From: Methanoregula sp.
GTDB lineage: Archaea > Halobacteriota > Methanomicrobia > Methanomicrobiales > Methanospirillaceae
NCBI GenBank assembly: GCA_028711405.1
Contig: JAQTSH010000002.1
Span: 1 to 33,223 of the forward strand
Length of the DNA stretch: 33,223 nt
Reading direction: 5' to 3'
The notes beneath the pieces are model-generated. The model searched no databases, was not told the origin of the DNA, and saw nothing but the letters and a program-made list of their open reading frames with translations. Of this stretch, positions 5,161 to 12,760 are shown in pieces; within the stretch, counting starts at the first letter, position 1; every line of letters begins with the position of its first letter. Both the position numbers and the translations under genes were made by a program.

Positions 5161-5604
5161 ATGATTCTATCTGCCCATGAAATTGTCCGCCGCACACACA
5201 GTGAATGCACGCAGGAACGACTTGTCATCGCGCCGTACAGTACCGAAAGCCAGCAACCCGCGTCCTATGATCTCCGCGCAGCTGACAATACCACCTTAAC
5301 CCGTGGTGCCTGCACGCTCGTTTCCAGTTTGGAATGGGTGGAACTCCCTCCCGATACTGCGGGGACACTACGGTGCAGGTCTTCACTTGGCAGGCGGGGG
5401 GTGCTCATGGGTGCGGGTTTTGTTGATCCGGGTTTTCGCGGACAGTTGACCCTTTGTCTTACCAATTTGGGACACGAGGATATCCTTTTGCAGAAGAACG
5501 ACCGGATTGTCCAGATGATTCTGCACGAAGTACTAAACGGTAGTGAACGGTATTCCGGGCGATACCAGGATAGTTGCGGTGCCGTGGAGGCGAAAGAATC
5601 ATGA
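5161..5604 (+). CDS. dcd: dCTP deaminase/dUTPase-family protein
   Basis: RSSLGRRGVLMGAGFVDPGFRGQLTLCLTN, typical of the dCTP deaminase/dUTPase fold. Confidence 0.85.
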   Translation: MILSAHEIVRRTHSECTQERLVIAPYSTESQQPASYDLRAADNTTLTRGACTLVSSLEWVELPPDTAGTLRCRSSLGRRGVLMGAGFVDPGFRGQLTLCLTNLGHEDILLQKNDRIVQMILHEVLNGSERYSGRYQDSCGAVEAKES

Positions 5605-6551
5605 TACGGACTGAACGAAAAACCATCGAAATCCTGCGGATATTAAAAGAGCATCAGGAACCAGTCGGGGCAAAAAGGCTTGCGGAACTGATGGCAGACC
5701 GGGGATTTGTGCTCAGTGACCGCGCTGTCCAGTATCATCTCAGCTACCTCGATAGTTCAGGGTTTACCGAAAAGGTGGGAAACCAGGGTCGGATGCTGAC
5801 CCCGCTCGGACTTGCTGAATCGGATAACGCGCTTGTCGATGACCGAATTGGATTTATCATATCCAAACTCGAGCGGCTCGCGTACCGGAGCACGTTCGAT
5901 CCCGCTACCGGAACGGGGGATGTTGCCTACAACCTCTCGATTGTGCCAAAAGTTTCGTTCGAACGGTCCATTGCGGCATTTGATGAGGTGGCAAAGACCG
6001 GGTGTGGGTTCTTCAGTTCCTATCGCATCATTGACCGGGATCCCCGCGTTCCCTCTGACTCGGTGGGTGTGATCACCCTTTGCAGTATCTCCATGGACGG
6101 CGTATTCCAGCGGGCGGGAATCCCTGTAAAGATGGCGTATGGCGGGCGTCTTGAGATCGATCGGGGAACTCCGGCCTGGTTCCGGGATCTGATCGGGTAC
6201 CGGGGCACCACCATCGATCCCCTTGAACTCTTCATCTCCTCCGGTCTGACCACAATAAACCAGTTTATCCGCACAAAGACAGGTATCGCGCTTGCAAATG
6301 TCCGAGAAGTGCCATGCTCGGCACGGGAACAAGTAGAACAGATCGTTCGGCTCATGAACGACTGCGGGTTTGTCTTTCCGGTCACGATGGGTAACCAGGT
6401 GTTCAATCTCCCCCCTAACCCGTTCCGCCTCTCGATTGTTGCCTTTTCGGGAATGAACTATATTGGCAACTGCGTTGAACAGGACCTTGATATCCGGACC
6501 GAGATCGGCGCCGGGAACATCCCGTTCTCCAAAGTGATGGAGACCAATTGA
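5601..6551 (+). CDS. nrpR: NrpR-type (wHTH + DUF128) transcriptional regulator
   Basis: N-terminal winged helix (KTIEILRILKEHQEPVGAKRLAELMADRGFVLSDRAVQYHLSYLD) followed by one DUF128-like domain; start overlaps the upstream stop. Confidence 0.85.
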   Translation: MIRTERKTIEILRILKEHQEPVGAKRLAELMADRGFVLSDRAVQYHLSYLDSSGFTEKVGNQGRMLTPLGLAESDNALVDDRIGFIISKLERLAYRSTFDPATGTGDVAYNLSIVPKVSFERSIAAFDEVAKTGCGFFSSYRIIDRDPRVPSDSVGVITLCSISMDGVFQRAGIPVKMAYGGRLEIDRGTPAWFRDLIGYRGTTIDPLELFISSGLTTINQFIRTKTGIALANVREVPCSAREQVEQIVRLMNDCGFVFPVTMGNQVFNLPPNPFRLSIVAFSGMNYIGNCVEQDLDIRTEIGAGNIPFSKVMETN

Positions 6552-8963
6552 TCAGGCACCGGATCCCGTCTCGTCTTCATCAGCCGGTTTCTTTACGCGC
6601 TTTTTTATCAAGTGGGCAGATGTGCGGGGAGGCTCCTCGCGTGACTGGACCTGGGCTGGAGGGGGTGTCGATACATCTGGTTGGCTCTTTTTAAGTTTCA
6701 ACCCGGCGCGGAGGAGGACTGAATCATTCGCCTGTGATGGCGACCGTTTCGGGATACCTTTTCCGGTAAAAATCTCATCGTTTGAATGCTTCATCTGATC
6801 TTTCAATGCAATCTGCGACTCTTGCAGGGCACTCTCAACGGGTGCTGCCGTGGAAATGATGAACGGATCCGATTTTTCCCCTTGTGCTGGTGCAGGTTCA
6901 GTGTCAGGGATCCGGGTGGGTGCCGGTTCTTCCAGGTTGTTCCGTTTCCTTGTGATAAGCACCGTTCTCTTCTCCGGTATATGCCTCTCGTCTGGTTTTG
7001 GGGCAACTGAAATGCCCGGGGATCTCGGTTCTGGGCGAACCAGTCTGTGGGGATCCATAGCCGGGGAGATGCCGGGAACGTGATGGGAGAGATCTTTTTT
7101 CACCTGGGGTTTCTTCTGCATGTGCCCGGAGATTGCCATCATCCGTTGTCGCTGTAACTCACTCTCAATCCGTAGCCTCTCCTGCTCCCGCTTCTTCAGG
7201 AGATCTTCCCGCGCACGCAGGGACGGATCTCCACCGTCCACCGGTCGTTTCGCGGGAGCCGGCTCCTGGCTTACCGGTGGTTTTGGCGGGATTGCCGGAG
7301 GAACGGCTGGTGCTTTTTCCGGAACGGTGTCCACTACCCTTCTCTCCTCCTTACTTACGACAAGGTGTCTCCGGGGTATCCGGGGCAGGGTGGTTGTAGA
7401 ACGGATTGTGGGAGCGCGTTCGCCCGGTGGTTGGGGTGCTGGCTTTTCCGCAGGTGGCACGGGTTGCACGATGACAGGTACGGCAATGTGTGGTTCGTCG
7501 GGAGCCGGTACTGACATCTCAAGGGGAGAGATTTCCTGACTGATCTCACGGTCGCGAGTCTCCCTGGTGCCAACAGGCGATTCTTGCATATCAGCCTGGC
7601 GGGTAATCTCTCCTGAACGCGCATCATCAAATCTGCCAACCGGGGATTTTTTTCCGGGAAGACTGATCATCGCATCCTTTCCGCCGGAGAACCTGTGTGC
7701 CGGAGGAGCATCTCCCGATGGCGTTTCGGACAATGCATCCGGCACATCAAAACCTTGATCTGAAGGGCGGCTCATCGGGAATCGGGAATCCCCGCGCAGG
7801 TTTGCGGAGTACTGTGTCCTGATCTCATTGAGCTCCGCAAGCCGGGGAATATTCTCAAGACCTGAGAGCATGACAATGATCGCGACATATTTTGTGTTCG
7901 TCACCGGGTAATCCCCGGATCGCGTCTCAAGACCGGCGATGCTCCGGTCGATCCATTTGCGTACGGTCATAAACCCCTTCATCGAGAGTTCATGGGAAGG
8001 ACCGGCAACAAGTACCAGTGCTTTTGCCGCGCTTGTGATATCACAGGGGGTTGAAACTTCATTGTAGATTGCCTGTTTTGCGAGCTCAACGATTCGGGAC
8101 GCTTTCTTCTTATGTTCTTCGGCAAAGTAACTGACCGGGCGCCATCGGGAGAGGAACCCGAACGGGTGCTGGGGCAGGTGTTCCACGGCATAACCGATGG
8201 TGATAAACCCCATCCCTTTCATCGTGTTCAGCACTTCCCCGGAGTCCATCACGACTTCAGCAAGATCGATACCGCCGTCAGCTTTGAACTCCCCAGCCCG
8301 GAGGATCAGGCTGATTCGCCGGACAATGCCTTCGTTCAAGATCATTCGCGCGGCATCCTCCGGAGATATCTCCTGCCGCGCCTTCCCCAACCCGAAAAAG
8401 CTGGTACCGCCTTTTTCCCGTTTTACGAGATCAGCCCTGGCTGCACTGATCTTCTTTGACCAGGTCTCATTGTCGAAGAGGATCACCCCGTCCAGAAGCG
8501 GGGAGAGCATCTCTATGTCATCGGCAGCTTTTGCCGATCGCTTCTCTCCCTCTGACAGGCATGGCAGGGTAAACAGACCAAATATCGGTTCGACAATCGA
8601 GGCCCTGAGCGCAGTAACAATGTGCGGGGCAATATTTGCCATACTTCCGCCCAGTCCGCAACAGATGAAGATGGCATCAATCTCCCCGCTCTCGACATTT
8701 TGTATGCGCGCAATGATTTCACCGATGTCCACGGTTGCGGTCTGATCCAGATCGCCATTTGCATTCAAGGCACCCGCTTCGAGCGCCGGGAAATATACCT
8801 TTGCAGATTCCGGAAGATCCCCCAGCTTCGCTAATGTGTCTCCATCCACATCGATGGCAAGCGCCTGAACACATGCCACCCGGCTGCTCCGCCGGTCTGT
8901 GGTGTAAAGACTCGCAGCGATCCGGCAACCTGCCCCCCCCAGTCCTATAGCGAGTATCCGCAT
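6552..8963 (-). CDS. Tubulin/FtsZ-like GTPase-fold protein with long low-complexity C-terminal tail
   Basis: 803 aa; N-term MRILAIGLGGAGCRIA, mid GLGGSMANIAPHIV...GLFTLPCLSEGEKRSAKAADDIEMLSPLLDGVILFDN similar to FtsZ/tubulin order of motifs; residues ~400-803 Pro/Lys/Arg/Glu-rich. Confidence 0.7.
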   Translation of the reverse strand: MRILAIGLGGAGCRIAASLYTTDRRSSRVACVQALAIDVDGDTLAKLGDLPESAKVYFPALEAGALNANGDLDQTATVDIGEIIARIQNVESGEIDAIFICCGLGGSMANIAPHIVTALRASIVEPIFGLFTLPCLSEGEKRSAKAADDIEMLSPLLDGVILFDNETWSKKISAARADLVKREKGGTSFFGLGKARQEISPEDAARMILNEGIVRRISLILRAGEFKADGGIDLAEVVMDSGEVLNTMKGMGFITIGYAVEHLPQHPFGFLSRWRPVSYFAEEHKKKASRIVELAKQAIYNEVSTPCDITSAAKALVLVAGPSHELSMKGFMTVRKWIDRSIAGLETRSGDYPVTNTKYVAIIVMLSGLENIPRLAELNEIRTQYSANLRGDSRFPMSRPSDQGFDVPDALSETPSGDAPPAHRFSGGKDAMISLPGKKSPVGRFDDARSGEITRQADMQESPVGTRETRDREISQEISPLEMSVPAPDEPHIAVPVIVQPVPPAEKPAPQPPGERAPTIRSTTTLPRIPRRHLVVSKEERRVVDTVPEKAPAVPPAIPPKPPVSQEPAPAKRPVDGGDPSLRAREDLLKKREQERLRIESELQRQRMMAISGHMQKKPQVKKDLSHHVPGISPAMDPHRLVRPEPRSPGISVAPKPDERHIPEKRTVLITRKRNNLEEPAPTRIPDTEPAPAQGEKSDPFIISTAAPVESALQESQIALKDQMKHSNDEIFTGKGIPKRSPSQANDSVLLRAGLKLKKSQPDVSTPPPAQVQSREEPPRTSAHLIKKRVKKPADEDETGSGA

Positions 8964-9513: not shown

Positions 9514-10503
9514 TTGACATATGGAATTGAATTTGTACCAGGAAATGTCAACGTAAAGCAAGTAGTTAACTTCTGTAAACTTGCTGAGTCAAAGGATATC
9601 GACTTTGCATGGATCACTAACCACTACAACAACCGCCACTGCTACCCGACTCTCGCTGCAATCGCGCAGGCAACATCGACCCTGAAAATGGGTCCGGGTA
9701 TCATGAATTCCTTTACCGACACGCCAGCAGCAATGGCATCGTTCTTCTGCACATTGAACGAAATTTCCGACGGGCGTGCAGTGCTCGGTATCGGACCCGG
9801 TGACCTGTCAACACTTCCGAAGCTCGCTATCGCGGGTGAGAAGCCGGTTGCCCGCCTTGAAGAGGCAGTCGTCCAGATCCGGAAACTCTGTGCCGGTGAA
9901 CAAGTGAACAAGTCCGGTATGAAGTTCTTCGACTACGATGGTGCGAAGTTGACCGGTGTCAACCTTCCCGACAAGAAGAAGGGCGTTCCAATCTACATCG
10001 GCGCACAGGGACCCAAGGTTCTTGAGCTTGCCGGAAAGGTTGGTGACGGTGCACTGATCAACGCATCCAACCCGAAGGACTTCCAGATCGCGATCCCGAT
10101 CATCAAGAAGGCAAGCGATGCTGCAGGCAAGAAGAACTTCGACGTTGGTGCATACACGGCAATGTCCATTGACCAGAGTGAGAAAAAGGCACGGAACGCA
10201 GCAAAGATTGTTGCCGCATTCATTGCAGCCGGTTCTCCGGAAGCACTGCTCACGCGCCACGGTCTCGACCTCGCCAATGTGGCAAAGATCAAGGCAGCGC
10301 TCGGCAAGTTCGACTTCAAGTCGGTTGGAGAACTCGTCGGAGACAAAGAGATTGATGCATTCACCATTGCAGGTACCCCTGAAATGGTCAAGGCAAAGTG
10401 TGCTGACCTGACAAAGGCTGGCGTCACCCAGATCATCTTTGGCTCACCACTCGGTCCCGACATGACCAACTCTATCCGCCTCCTCGGCAAGTACGTCGTA
10501 TAA
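9514..10503 (+). CDS. mer: F420-dependent 5,10-methylenetetrahydromethanopterin reductase
   Basis: 329 aa luciferase-like MTYGIEFVPGNVNVKQVVNFCKLAESKDIDFAWITNHYNNR; TTG start with GAGGTGA ribosome-binding site. Confidence 0.95.
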   Translation: MTYGIEFVPGNVNVKQVVNFCKLAESKDIDFAWITNHYNNRHCYPTLAAIAQATSTLKMGPGIMNSFTDTPAAMASFFCTLNEISDGRAVLGIGPGDLSTLPKLAIAGEKPVARLEEAVVQIRKLCAGEQVNKSGMKFFDYDGAKLTGVNLPDKKKGVPIYIGAQGPKVLELAGKVGDGALINASNPKDFQIAIPIIKKASDAAGKKNFDVGAYTAMSIDQSEKKARNAAKIVAAFIAAGSPEALLTRHGLDLANVAKIKAALGKFDFKSVGELVGDKEIDAFTIAGTPEMVKAKCADLTKAGVTQIIFGSPLGPDMTNSIRLLGKYVV

Positions 10504-10813: not shown

Positions 10814-11749
10814 TTGGAAATGTTTGCTGTTTCAGAAGTATCCATGGATAAGGGGTTATTGCAGCACAGGATGGAGCGTTTCACCGGTCTCCGGTGCAGG
10901 ATCAGCCCGGAACGACTGAAGCGACATATCGATCAGGTATTCTCTCTGCCAGAGAATCATGATGGCTGCCCGTTCTGCCGTGATCGCGTTTTTACCGAGA
11001 CCCCTACATTTTCGGACAATACCCGGATTATTCTTGGAGAAAGTGTCACATTTCCCAACCTGTTCCCGTTCGGGGAGTGGCATACGGTGACCGTGATCAC
11101 CGCCGCGCATCACGTAGAGACCTTTACGCACCAGCAAATGGTTGATGCCATCCGTGCACAAGCAGACGCGCTCCGGAGGGTTGATGGCTATCCCAGTATC
11201 AACTGGAACTTTCTTCCTTCAGCCGGTGCGAGTCTTGTCCACCCCCATATGCAGGCACTCTCTGACCGGTCTCCCCCGTTGATGATTGAACGTTACCGCG
11301 CGGCATGTCAATGCTACCGGAAGGATACCGGTGCAAGTTACTGGGATGCAGTCCGTGAGCAGGAGCGGGCATCGGATCGCTATCTCTTTGGGGATGAGAT
11401 CCTCTGGTCAGCACATGCCGTCCCGGTTGGGGAACGTGAAGTGAGGGGTTTATTCCCGTTTGGTTCAATTGATCAACTGGATACTTATGTGGATTCCCTT
11501 GTGGAGGGTATCCTGCGCGTCATTACCCTTTATAAAAAACTGGGAACGCATGCGTTCAACATGGCGATATTTTTTGATAAACCGGACGAGAACCAGGACT
11601 CGCGGGCATTCTGCTCGCTCATCTCCCGGATAAACCCTAATGCTTCATCGACCAGCGACTCTGCGTTCATGGAACGGATGCACCTTGAGCCGGTGATCCT
11701 GACGCTCCCGGAAGATCTGGGTCGGTACTACCGGAACGAATGCTGTTAA
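10814..11749 (+). CDS. Galactose-1-phosphate uridylyltransferase-like (HIT superfamily) protein
   Basis: CPFC motif and HPHMQ catalytic-type motif (SLVHPHMQALSDRSP). Confidence 0.7.
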   Translation: MEMFAVSEVSMDKGLLQHRMERFTGLRCRISPERLKRHIDQVFSLPENHDGCPFCRDRVFTETPTFSDNTRIILGESVTFPNLFPFGEWHTVTVITAAHHVETFTHQQMVDAIRAQADALRRVDGYPSINWNFLPSAGASLVHPHMQALSDRSPPLMIERYRAACQCYRKDTGASYWDAVREQERASDRYLFGDEILWSAHAVPVGEREVRGLFPFGSIDQLDTYVDSLVEGILRVITLYKKLGTHAFNMAIFFDKPDENQDSRAFCSLISRINPNASSTSDSAFMERMHLEPVILTLPEDLGRYYRNECC

Positions 11750-11920: not shown

Positions 11921-12760
11921 TTACTCTGGCTTGCTCATCAGTTTCACTTTGGAAACAATGGTGCCGTCTTTCTTGTGGGGCTTTCTGATGATACCGTCGC
12001 CAGCCTTCTCAATCTCACGGGCTTCGTCGCAGAGCACTGCTGCTGCCCGCATCATTTCGTGAGCGCTCGTGACGATTGGGACGTATTTCTCCCATTCCTT
12101 CGTCATGAAACAACCCTTGACGTTCACCATGGCGACTGCCGATGCAATCTCGTATGCTGCGCGTGCTTTGGACATCGCGTAGGCATTGGTGAATTCTCCA
12201 TCAATTGCCTTCTCGGCGGTCATGATGATCTTCGGGAGTTCGAGCTCTGCGCCCTTCTTGCCCGCTTTCACCTGGTCGATTACCTTGTCAAGGGCAAGCT
12301 GGAGCTTGCGGAATGCACCGGTGAGTGCAAGGACTTTGACGAGGTTTCCGTTGTAGTCTGCCATCTCGATGGGGTCGAGGAACTCACGGCGTGCACCAAT
12401 CATGGAGTCTGCCTTCATGATGATGTATCCGAACTGGCTGGTCTTGACACCTTCCCATTCCTTCTTGGTCGTTACATCATCGGTGATGATGACAACGGGG
12501 ATGCCTGCGGCAGCGAGTTCCTGGCGTGCATCGGTTGGTCCGGGAAGAACGCCGTTCGGGGAGACTACGATACAGAAGTCTGGTTTCCATGCCTTCATGT
12601 TGGAGACAACGCGGTCAACGTCTGCCTTCTCGAGCTTTGTCCCGCTGGTCGCCATGAATGTCTGCATGTCTTCACGGTCTGCTCTCTCATCGAGGAGCAG
12701 TTCGGTCATTACACCGCTTGCAATGTTGCCCAACTTGGCAACTCCTACTTTCACAACCAT
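11921..12760 (-). CDS. mtd: F420-dependent methylenetetrahydromethanopterin dehydrogenase
   Basis: 279 aa [32 protein letters not shown]...; strong GAGGTGA ribosome-binding site. Confidence 0.96.

Follow-up and report, generated by a model that had tools for sequence, protein, structure and literature searches.

A conserved CetZ-family paralogue of Methanomicrobiales lacking the T3 and distal T4 nucleotide loops, and its possible role at the ends of CetZ filaments

Proteins of the tubulin superfamily are understood as GTP-driven polymers, and the locus described here raises the question of what is encoded by a tubulin-like gene from which the GGGTG(T/S)G signature is absent. The window studied is a stretch of 33,223 nucleotides from a Methanoregula sp. 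contig (JAQTSH010000002.1), whose host assembly is 71.6 % complete. A first-pass annotation of the sequence had placed a divergent tubulin/FtsZ-like protein at positions 6552–8963. Translation confirmed both the coordinates and the reality of the ORF, which lies on the minus strand (8963 to 6552; ATG at 8963, stop codon at 6554–6552; 803 aa), the plus-strand frame over the same positions being full of stops. We refer to this gene as cetZ* and to its product, a CetZ-family predicted pseudo-GTPase with a disordered tail, as CetZ*. All CetZ* features given below are on the minus strand of the window.

Family identity, distribution and locus

The protein matched the CetZ_C domain (PF21011) over residues 209–381 (E=4.7e-42), with a score of 143.9 bits against a curated cut-off of 21.6, an excess of 122 bits, and the Tubulin domain (PF00091) over residues 2–170 (E=4.8e-11). 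The CetZ_C domain was matched in 31/31 CetZ* members scanned. By sequence, the nearest solved structures were CetZ1 (4b46, 4.9e-45) and then CetZ2 (4b45). An AF2 model built on residues 1–400 gave a confident CetZ-fold core (residues 1–392, 7788–8963; pLDDT 87.9, pTM 0.87), for which the first PDB matches by Foldseek were 4b46, 4b45 and 3zid, the best being CetZ1 4b46 (E=1.5e-30, TM 0.86 by target). Structure prediction, which the first-pass annotation had suggested, therefore returned a tubulin-superfamily fold with CetZ as the best match, followed by FtsZ. Its description of a non-canonical archaeal member of the superfamily was right as to superfamily and domain but incomplete, since a named family fits. 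A strong match to a well-characterized family, which it had named as grounds for refutation, was in part found, given the PF21011 match and CetZ1 and CetZ2 as nearest structures. CetZ* is thus a CetZ-family paralogue by descent. We do not file it as a CetZ GTPase, because the T3/T4 GTP-binding loops are absent in every member read.

Other assignments were considered and set aside. The FtsZ equivalog TIGR00065 scored 37.3 bits against a cut-off of 295.2, and true FtsZ is encoded separately; Tubulin_2 (PF13809) reached 12 bits against a curated cut-off of 27. FtsZl1 resembles CetZ* as a divergent member of the superfamily that may not form ordinary filaments, but it keeps T1/T4, has an unrecognizable T6–H7 region and carries a coiled-coil domain (Makarova and Koonin 2010, PMC2875224). 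CetZ* has the opposite features, keeping T6, H7 and T7, losing T3/T4 and bearing a disordered tail rather than a coiled coil. With bacterial and eukaryotic tubulins, artubulins and TubZ it has the superfamily fold in common; none of these gave a family match, and the structural matches were to CetZ first and then to FtsZ.

CetZ* was found in 57 of the 60 Methanomicrobiales relatives searched, and some match was found in all 60. The remaining three (G007, G008 and G032), whose genomes are incomplete (64–77 %), had a canonical CetZ match only. In a phylum-wide sample of 246 genomes, strong full-core matches were confined to the order of the window, and a scan of a genome collection returned Methanoregula, Methanoculleus, Methanogenium, Methanofollis and other Methanomicrobiales. 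A contig titled Thermoplasmata archaeon (L220, DQIQ01000096.1) carries a Methanoregula-type CetZ* with 46 % identity over residues 1–759, and this bin is probably mislabelled. When seven Methanomicrobiales genomes of at least 94 % completeness were scanned with PF00091, they yielded FtsZ twice, one canonical CetZ (about 390–410 aa), CetZ* and occasionally an additional tubulin-like protein; some genomes have two canonical CetZs. Extra large tubulin-superfamily proteins of 723 and 1084 aa with GGGTGSG intact (L174, L177), possibly of FtsZl1 or Tubulin_2 type, were also seen in some Methanomicrobiales genomes.

The gene order around cetZ* is conserved, running from an AMP-phosphorylase-like gene through a surface protein, dcd and nrpR to cetZ*, which faces the other way, and on to mer, a galT-like gene, mtd and ribosomal genes, with mer near cetZ* in 38 of the 45 loci examined. 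In the window, an nrpR-like regulator (5574–6551, plus strand; PF01995, 1.4e-78) is convergent with cetZ*, their stop codons abutting, and the divergent neighbour is a mer-like gene of the luciferase family and methylene-H4MPT reductase type (9514–10503, plus strand; PF00296, 4.3e-52). The mtd gene (11921–12760, minus strand; PF01993, 2.2e-108) belongs, like the nrpR-like gene, to the syntenic block. Between mer and mtd, a galT-like/DUF4931-like protein (10814–11749) is conserved across the order and has no strong Pfam match. A search near cetZ* for the NrpR operator GGAA-N6-TTCC gave a sole exact site, which is distant, among the ribosomal genes, and one-mismatch matches that were only somewhat above chance.

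Phylogenetic inference placed all CetZ and CetZ* sequences on one side and FtsZ on the other (support 100). CetZ* formed a single clade (36 rows, SH-aLRT 99; 32 rows, 100, with the longest branches removed), the exact sister of which was weakly supported (77) on long branches. Methanosarcinales CetZ, in which T4 retains GGTGSS, did not group with CetZ* in this tree, again on long branches. Two CetZs per genome, one Halobacteria-like and one deeper, have previously been described in Archaeoglobales and Methanomicrobiales and suggested to be functional pairs, within a scheme in which a 'Non-Halobacteria-like' group unites Archaeoglobales, Methanomicrobiales and Methanosarcinales (Brown and Duggin 2023, PMC9856176). 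To judge from the main text of that paper, CetZ* is almost certainly its second Methanomicrobiales CetZ, already drawn in its tree, although our tree sets CetZ* apart from the Methanosarcinales sequences included in that group. In that main text we found no mention of the loss of the pocket, the insertion, the tail or the terminal peptide. For the three closest pairs, to which the estimate was limited by saturation of dS in more divergent ones, dN/dS was about 0.03–0.13 in the core, which is under purifying selection, and 0.23–0.39 in the tail. Taken with the strong Pfam matches and the presence of the protein in 57/60 relatives, this places the ORF far beyond chance.

An eroded nucleotide side and a conserved T7 face

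The first-pass annotation had read MRILAIGLGGAGCRIA, CCGLGGSMANIAPHIV and GLFTLPCLSEGEKR...LDGVILFDN as nucleotide-binding motifs, and these are found at the T1, T4 and T5/T6 positions, respectively. It had also described the signature as replaced by CGLGGSM. The motif is indeed non-canonical, but the change is no simple swap, as T3 and distal T4 are lost, the H6–H7 region is enlarged and the T7 side is kept. At the T3 position (residues 59–79, 8727–8789), which was modelled with low AF2 confidence, the canonical KGHGVGTDN is gone; at T4 (residues 103–113, 8625–8657), GLGG is kept and GTGSG is lost together with one residue (GLGGSM-ANIAP). Both losses were seen in every CetZ* read, T4 always taking the form GLGG-x-x and being one residue shorter, whereas KGHGVGTDN and GLGGGTGSG persist in the canonical paralogue that these genomes encode. 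Loop lengths reflect this (T3, median 16 in CetZ* vs 24 in canonical CetZ; T4, 11 vs 12), and T2 has lost its Asn, N-T-A becoming D-x-D. Between H6 and H7, which in tubulin-type filaments sit on the nucleotide side of the subunit, the window protein carries an insertion (residues 171–200, 8364–8453). The W168–N210 span measures 43 residues in the window copy and 31–54 across CetZ*, compared to 16 in 34/34 canonical CetZ, which amounts to insertions of 15–38 residues among the members.

Other elements have largely been kept, namely T1 (residues 5–14, AIGLGGAGCR, 8922–8951), the T5 Glu, the FDN of T6 (residues 161–166, ILFDNE, 8466–8483, Asn retained) and the H7 Asn. In the T7/H8 region (residues 222–249, ending in AEVVMDSGEVLNTM, 8217–8300), the Glu aligned with E218 of CetZ1, as numbered from the alignment to 4b46, is conserved in the window copy and kept in nearly all members (DSGE/DAGE). 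E218 is the catalytic acid of T7 in CetZ1. The most conserved stretch of the core is H10–S9 (residues 326–354, 7902–7988). In 14 genomes with both proteins, pairwise identity over the whole core was 51 % for CetZ* and 81 % for canonical CetZ; on the nucleotide side the values were 26 vs 87 % for T3 and 52 vs 95 % for T4, whereas H10 (86 vs 93 %) and S9 (87 vs 97 %) stood near the canonical level. Constraint on CetZ* is therefore asymmetric, with excess divergence on the nucleotide side and a retained T7/H8/H10/S9 face, although the conservation of H10/S9 could instead reflect fold stability. Because the T3 and distal T4 loops are lost, CetZ* is predicted to be a pseudo-GTPase that probably does not bind GTP. 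Some guanosine-type ligand may still bind, as T1, the T5 Glu and the T6 Asn are largely kept.

A disordered tail and its terminal peptide

Residues 393–803 (6555–7787) form a tail that, as the first-pass annotation had noted, is rich in Pro, Arg, Glu and Lys and predicted to be disordered, both from its composition (P 15 %, W+F+Y 1.7 %, no Cys) and from AF2, in which full-length pLDDT over this region was mostly below 50. Most values lay in the 30s or 40s; the exception is a lone confident helix (residues 582–611, 7131–7220), whose ERQRIEKELQRQRM-like core is conserved across much of the genus. A repeat motif search identified the pair SNDEIFTGKGI and ANDSVLLRAGL (residues 727–755, 6699–6785). 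A tail was present in 63 of 74 complete members and absent in 11/74, the tail-less members being scattered over several places in the tree. As tails are spread across the order, this suggests loss; separate gains are also possible. The tail-less proteins (L096–L106) belong to several genera of the family of the window, lie mostly at the same locus and end near residue 370–405. One member (L107) has a tail of 91 residues that still ends in DDFTWIS, and four others (L026, L031, L036 and L112) have tails of 500–580 residues with an 18-residue-spaced repeat of the [AP]NDNxFxGxxI type and PKELLSGGVKI repeats. The short motif ~[AP]-[KNRSQ]-D-x-x-[FLI] occurred 56 times in the 63 tails, compared to 0.8 expected from shuffles; this pattern and those of the tip below were drawn after viewing the sequences, so that the figures describe rather than test, and it is the contrast with controls that counts.

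The first-pass annotation had described the tail as lacking the usual FtsZ C-terminal peptide, which is true of the window copy but untrue of the family. In 52 of the 63 tailed members, the very end of the protein carries an acidic residue or Gly followed by [ILF]-x-W-[IL], resembling that peptide, and in 11/63, the window copy among them, it is absent. The last 20 residues of the window protein (6555–6614) end in DEDETGSGA without the [IL]xW[IL] peptide. A sequencing frameshift was rejected as the cause, as no remnant of the peptide was found past the stop in any frame and the sister species (L002) is also without it. When 51 tips were aligned on the Trp, the next residue was Ile in 45 and Ile or Leu stood two positions before it in 44. 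The FtsZ-type tip pattern was found at the end of 45/63 CetZ* proteins (0.37 expected from shuffles), 43/46 FtsZ2 and 12/13 FtsZ1, but 0/34 canonical CetZ and 2/256 proteins of eight neighbouring gene families.

In most of the 34 canonical CetZ sequences, phylum-wide (for example L055, L058, L124 and L134), the protein instead ends in acidic-[IL]-[ED]-P-L-F. Compared to CetZ1 and CetZ2 of Haloferax volcanii, CetZ* has the fold, the CetZ_C domain and the T7 region in common, but it is without T3 and distal T4 and has the H6–H7 insertion, the long disordered tail and a Trp tip instead of D[IL][ED]PLF. The terminal [IL]xW[IL] peptide might equally be the canonical terminus (D-[IL]-[ED]-P-L-F) drifted to Trp and serving another CetZ partner, a reading of the tail only that is compatible with our main proposal for the core and that we hold to be plausible but less likely than not. 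Against it, the CetZ* tip shares with FtsZ an aromatic residue at the third position (F in FtsZ2; W in the FtsZ1 of the same genus, TLDWVN and MLEWVG), where canonical CetZ has Pro. Archaeal FtsZ1 and FtsZ2 resemble CetZ* in having a globular core, a disordered linker (FtsZ1) and a terminal hydrophobic-x-aromatic-hydrophobic peptide, which in FtsZ contains a GID motif and binds SepF (PMC8178401). The core of CetZ*, however, is that of CetZ, and its SepF binding is putative. SepF is encoded in 36 of 40 relatives and is the leading candidate partner of the tip, a tentative and on the whole doubtful suggestion that is weakened by the replacement of the GID aspartate with Ser or Thr in 38 of 51 CetZ* tips, by the alternative ancestry in the canonical tip and by the loss of the peptide from the window copy and ten other tailed members. 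When CetZ* and FtsZ1 peptides were compared by eye for each family in turn, no pattern emerged.

A second pocket-less group and the candidate roles of CetZ*

Within Methanomicrobiales, cetZ* and canonical cetZ are not neighbours, which counts against the docking role proposed below. In another family of the phylum, a 339-aa CetZ-like gene without T3/T4 sits immediately upstream of canonical cetZ, both genes being on one strand (L117:990–2174 and L117:2289–3308, minus strand). A search with this nucleotide-dead protein showed that nearly every genome of family f9 encodes a paralogue of about 310 aa. Family f9 is probably Archaeoglobaceae, given the distribution of dsrA, which was found in four genera and missing from two others among those tested. 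These paralogues are tail-less and their pocket is still more degraded than that of CetZ*, with T1, T3, T4 and T6 all eroded, yet GEVVVDTSDVFN(A/S)L at T7/H8 is nearly fixed and T7 identity is 72 %, compared to 48 % for the whole protein. The T7/H8 region has thus outlasted the pocket, as would be required of a docking partner. The paralogues fell with f28 into a single clade (99) distinct from CetZ* of Methanomicrobiales, the separating branch having a support of 77 and all branches being long.

In filaments of the tubulin superfamily, the active site around a subunit's nucleotide is completed by the T7 loop of its neighbour. We propose, with a probability of about 0.4, that CetZ* is a regulator of the cytoskeleton that docks onto and caps canonical CetZ, and not another filament builder. 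Most likely, it would neither bind nor hydrolyse GTP productively and would not build homopolymers, in which case the earlier suggestion that the protein perhaps does not polymerize like FtsZ was probably right as a prediction. The T7 face of CetZ* would dock onto the nucleotide-exposing end of a canonical CetZ protofilament in the same cell, complete the active site of the end subunit and stop further addition, acting as a cap or as a trigger of hydrolysis. Capping is proposed because a subunit that bears T7 and has no pocket can sit on the nucleotide end and may not pass the contact on. The disordered tail, with its short motifs and mostly FtsZ-like tip, would tie CetZ* to other partners, SepF foremost; in the species of the window, where the terminal peptide is lost, the remaining tail motifs would have to recruit them. 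If this is true, a conserved pocket-less member with a docking face is a built-in regulator of archaeal filaments, CetZ dynamics gain a handle testable in vitro and a bridge between the cell-shape (CetZ) and division (FtsZ/SepF) systems is possible. The wider form of the proposal is rather unlikely: that both Methanomicrobiales and the probable Archaeoglobaceae maintain a nucleotide-dead partner dedicated to their canonical CetZ, a protofilament cap or hydrolysis trigger working through T7 alone, with the Methanomicrobiales tail and its SepF-binding tip physically coupling CetZ to FtsZ/SepF division.

Loss of the pocket from a conserved fold, a tail rich in short motifs and the lack of an operon with canonical cetZ in Methanomicrobiales would also suit a pseudo-GTPase scaffold, in which the tubulin fold anchors the tail, the T7/H10 face binds a non-tubulin partner or stabilizes the fold and CetZ filaments are left untouched. 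We consider this unlikely, though worth weighing, as the core is kept in eleven orthologues from which the tail is absent, and so has a function of its own, and T7/H8 is kept in the Archaeoglobaceae-type group despite the erasure of the remaining pocket. An improbable alternative is that CetZ* co-assembles with the canonical CetZ encoded in the same genomes, as alpha- with beta-tubulin, in a mixed or alternating polymer in which its own pocket is structural and not catalytic. The intact T7 acid and largely kept T1 and T6 would allow this, but loss of T3/T4 and an insertion of 15–38 residues at H6–H7 make a poor seat for the next subunit, and alpha-tubulin, by contrast, retains a complete nucleotide site. 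It is quite improbable that CetZ* is an ordinary CetZ whose remodelled pocket still binds GTP and which assembles on its own into cytoskeletal filaments that serve cell shape. Sequence and fold are both those of CetZ, and GLGG, the T5 Glu, the T6 Asn and the T7 Glu are retained, but no member retains T3, the gamma-phosphate loop, or the greater part of the T4 signature, and these loops evolve fast, relaxed compared to the paralogue in the same genomes.

Finally, a decaying gene or a reading artefact, which the lost pocket motifs might bring to mind, has a negligible probability in view of the locus conserved across the order, the open frames, the core dN/dS of about 0.03–0.13 and the mention of a CetZ gene at the mer/mtd locus in transcriptome work on Methanoculleus (PMC12008871). 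In that study, mer, mtd and a 'CetZ' share an operon, and mtd is named as up-regulated, CetZ itself not being so described; judged by its neighbours, this is evidently the cetZ* gene. Such proteins are labelled plain 'CetZ' or 'tubulin-like', as in this methanogen work, and the labels call for caution. Near cetZ* in many genomes outside Methanoregula, we also observed a family of long proteins of up to about 1050 aa (gene cluster 12; for example L027:8897–12052, L043 and L110), which may correspond to the VWA-type proteins noted in the Methanoculleus mer/mtd/CetZ operon.
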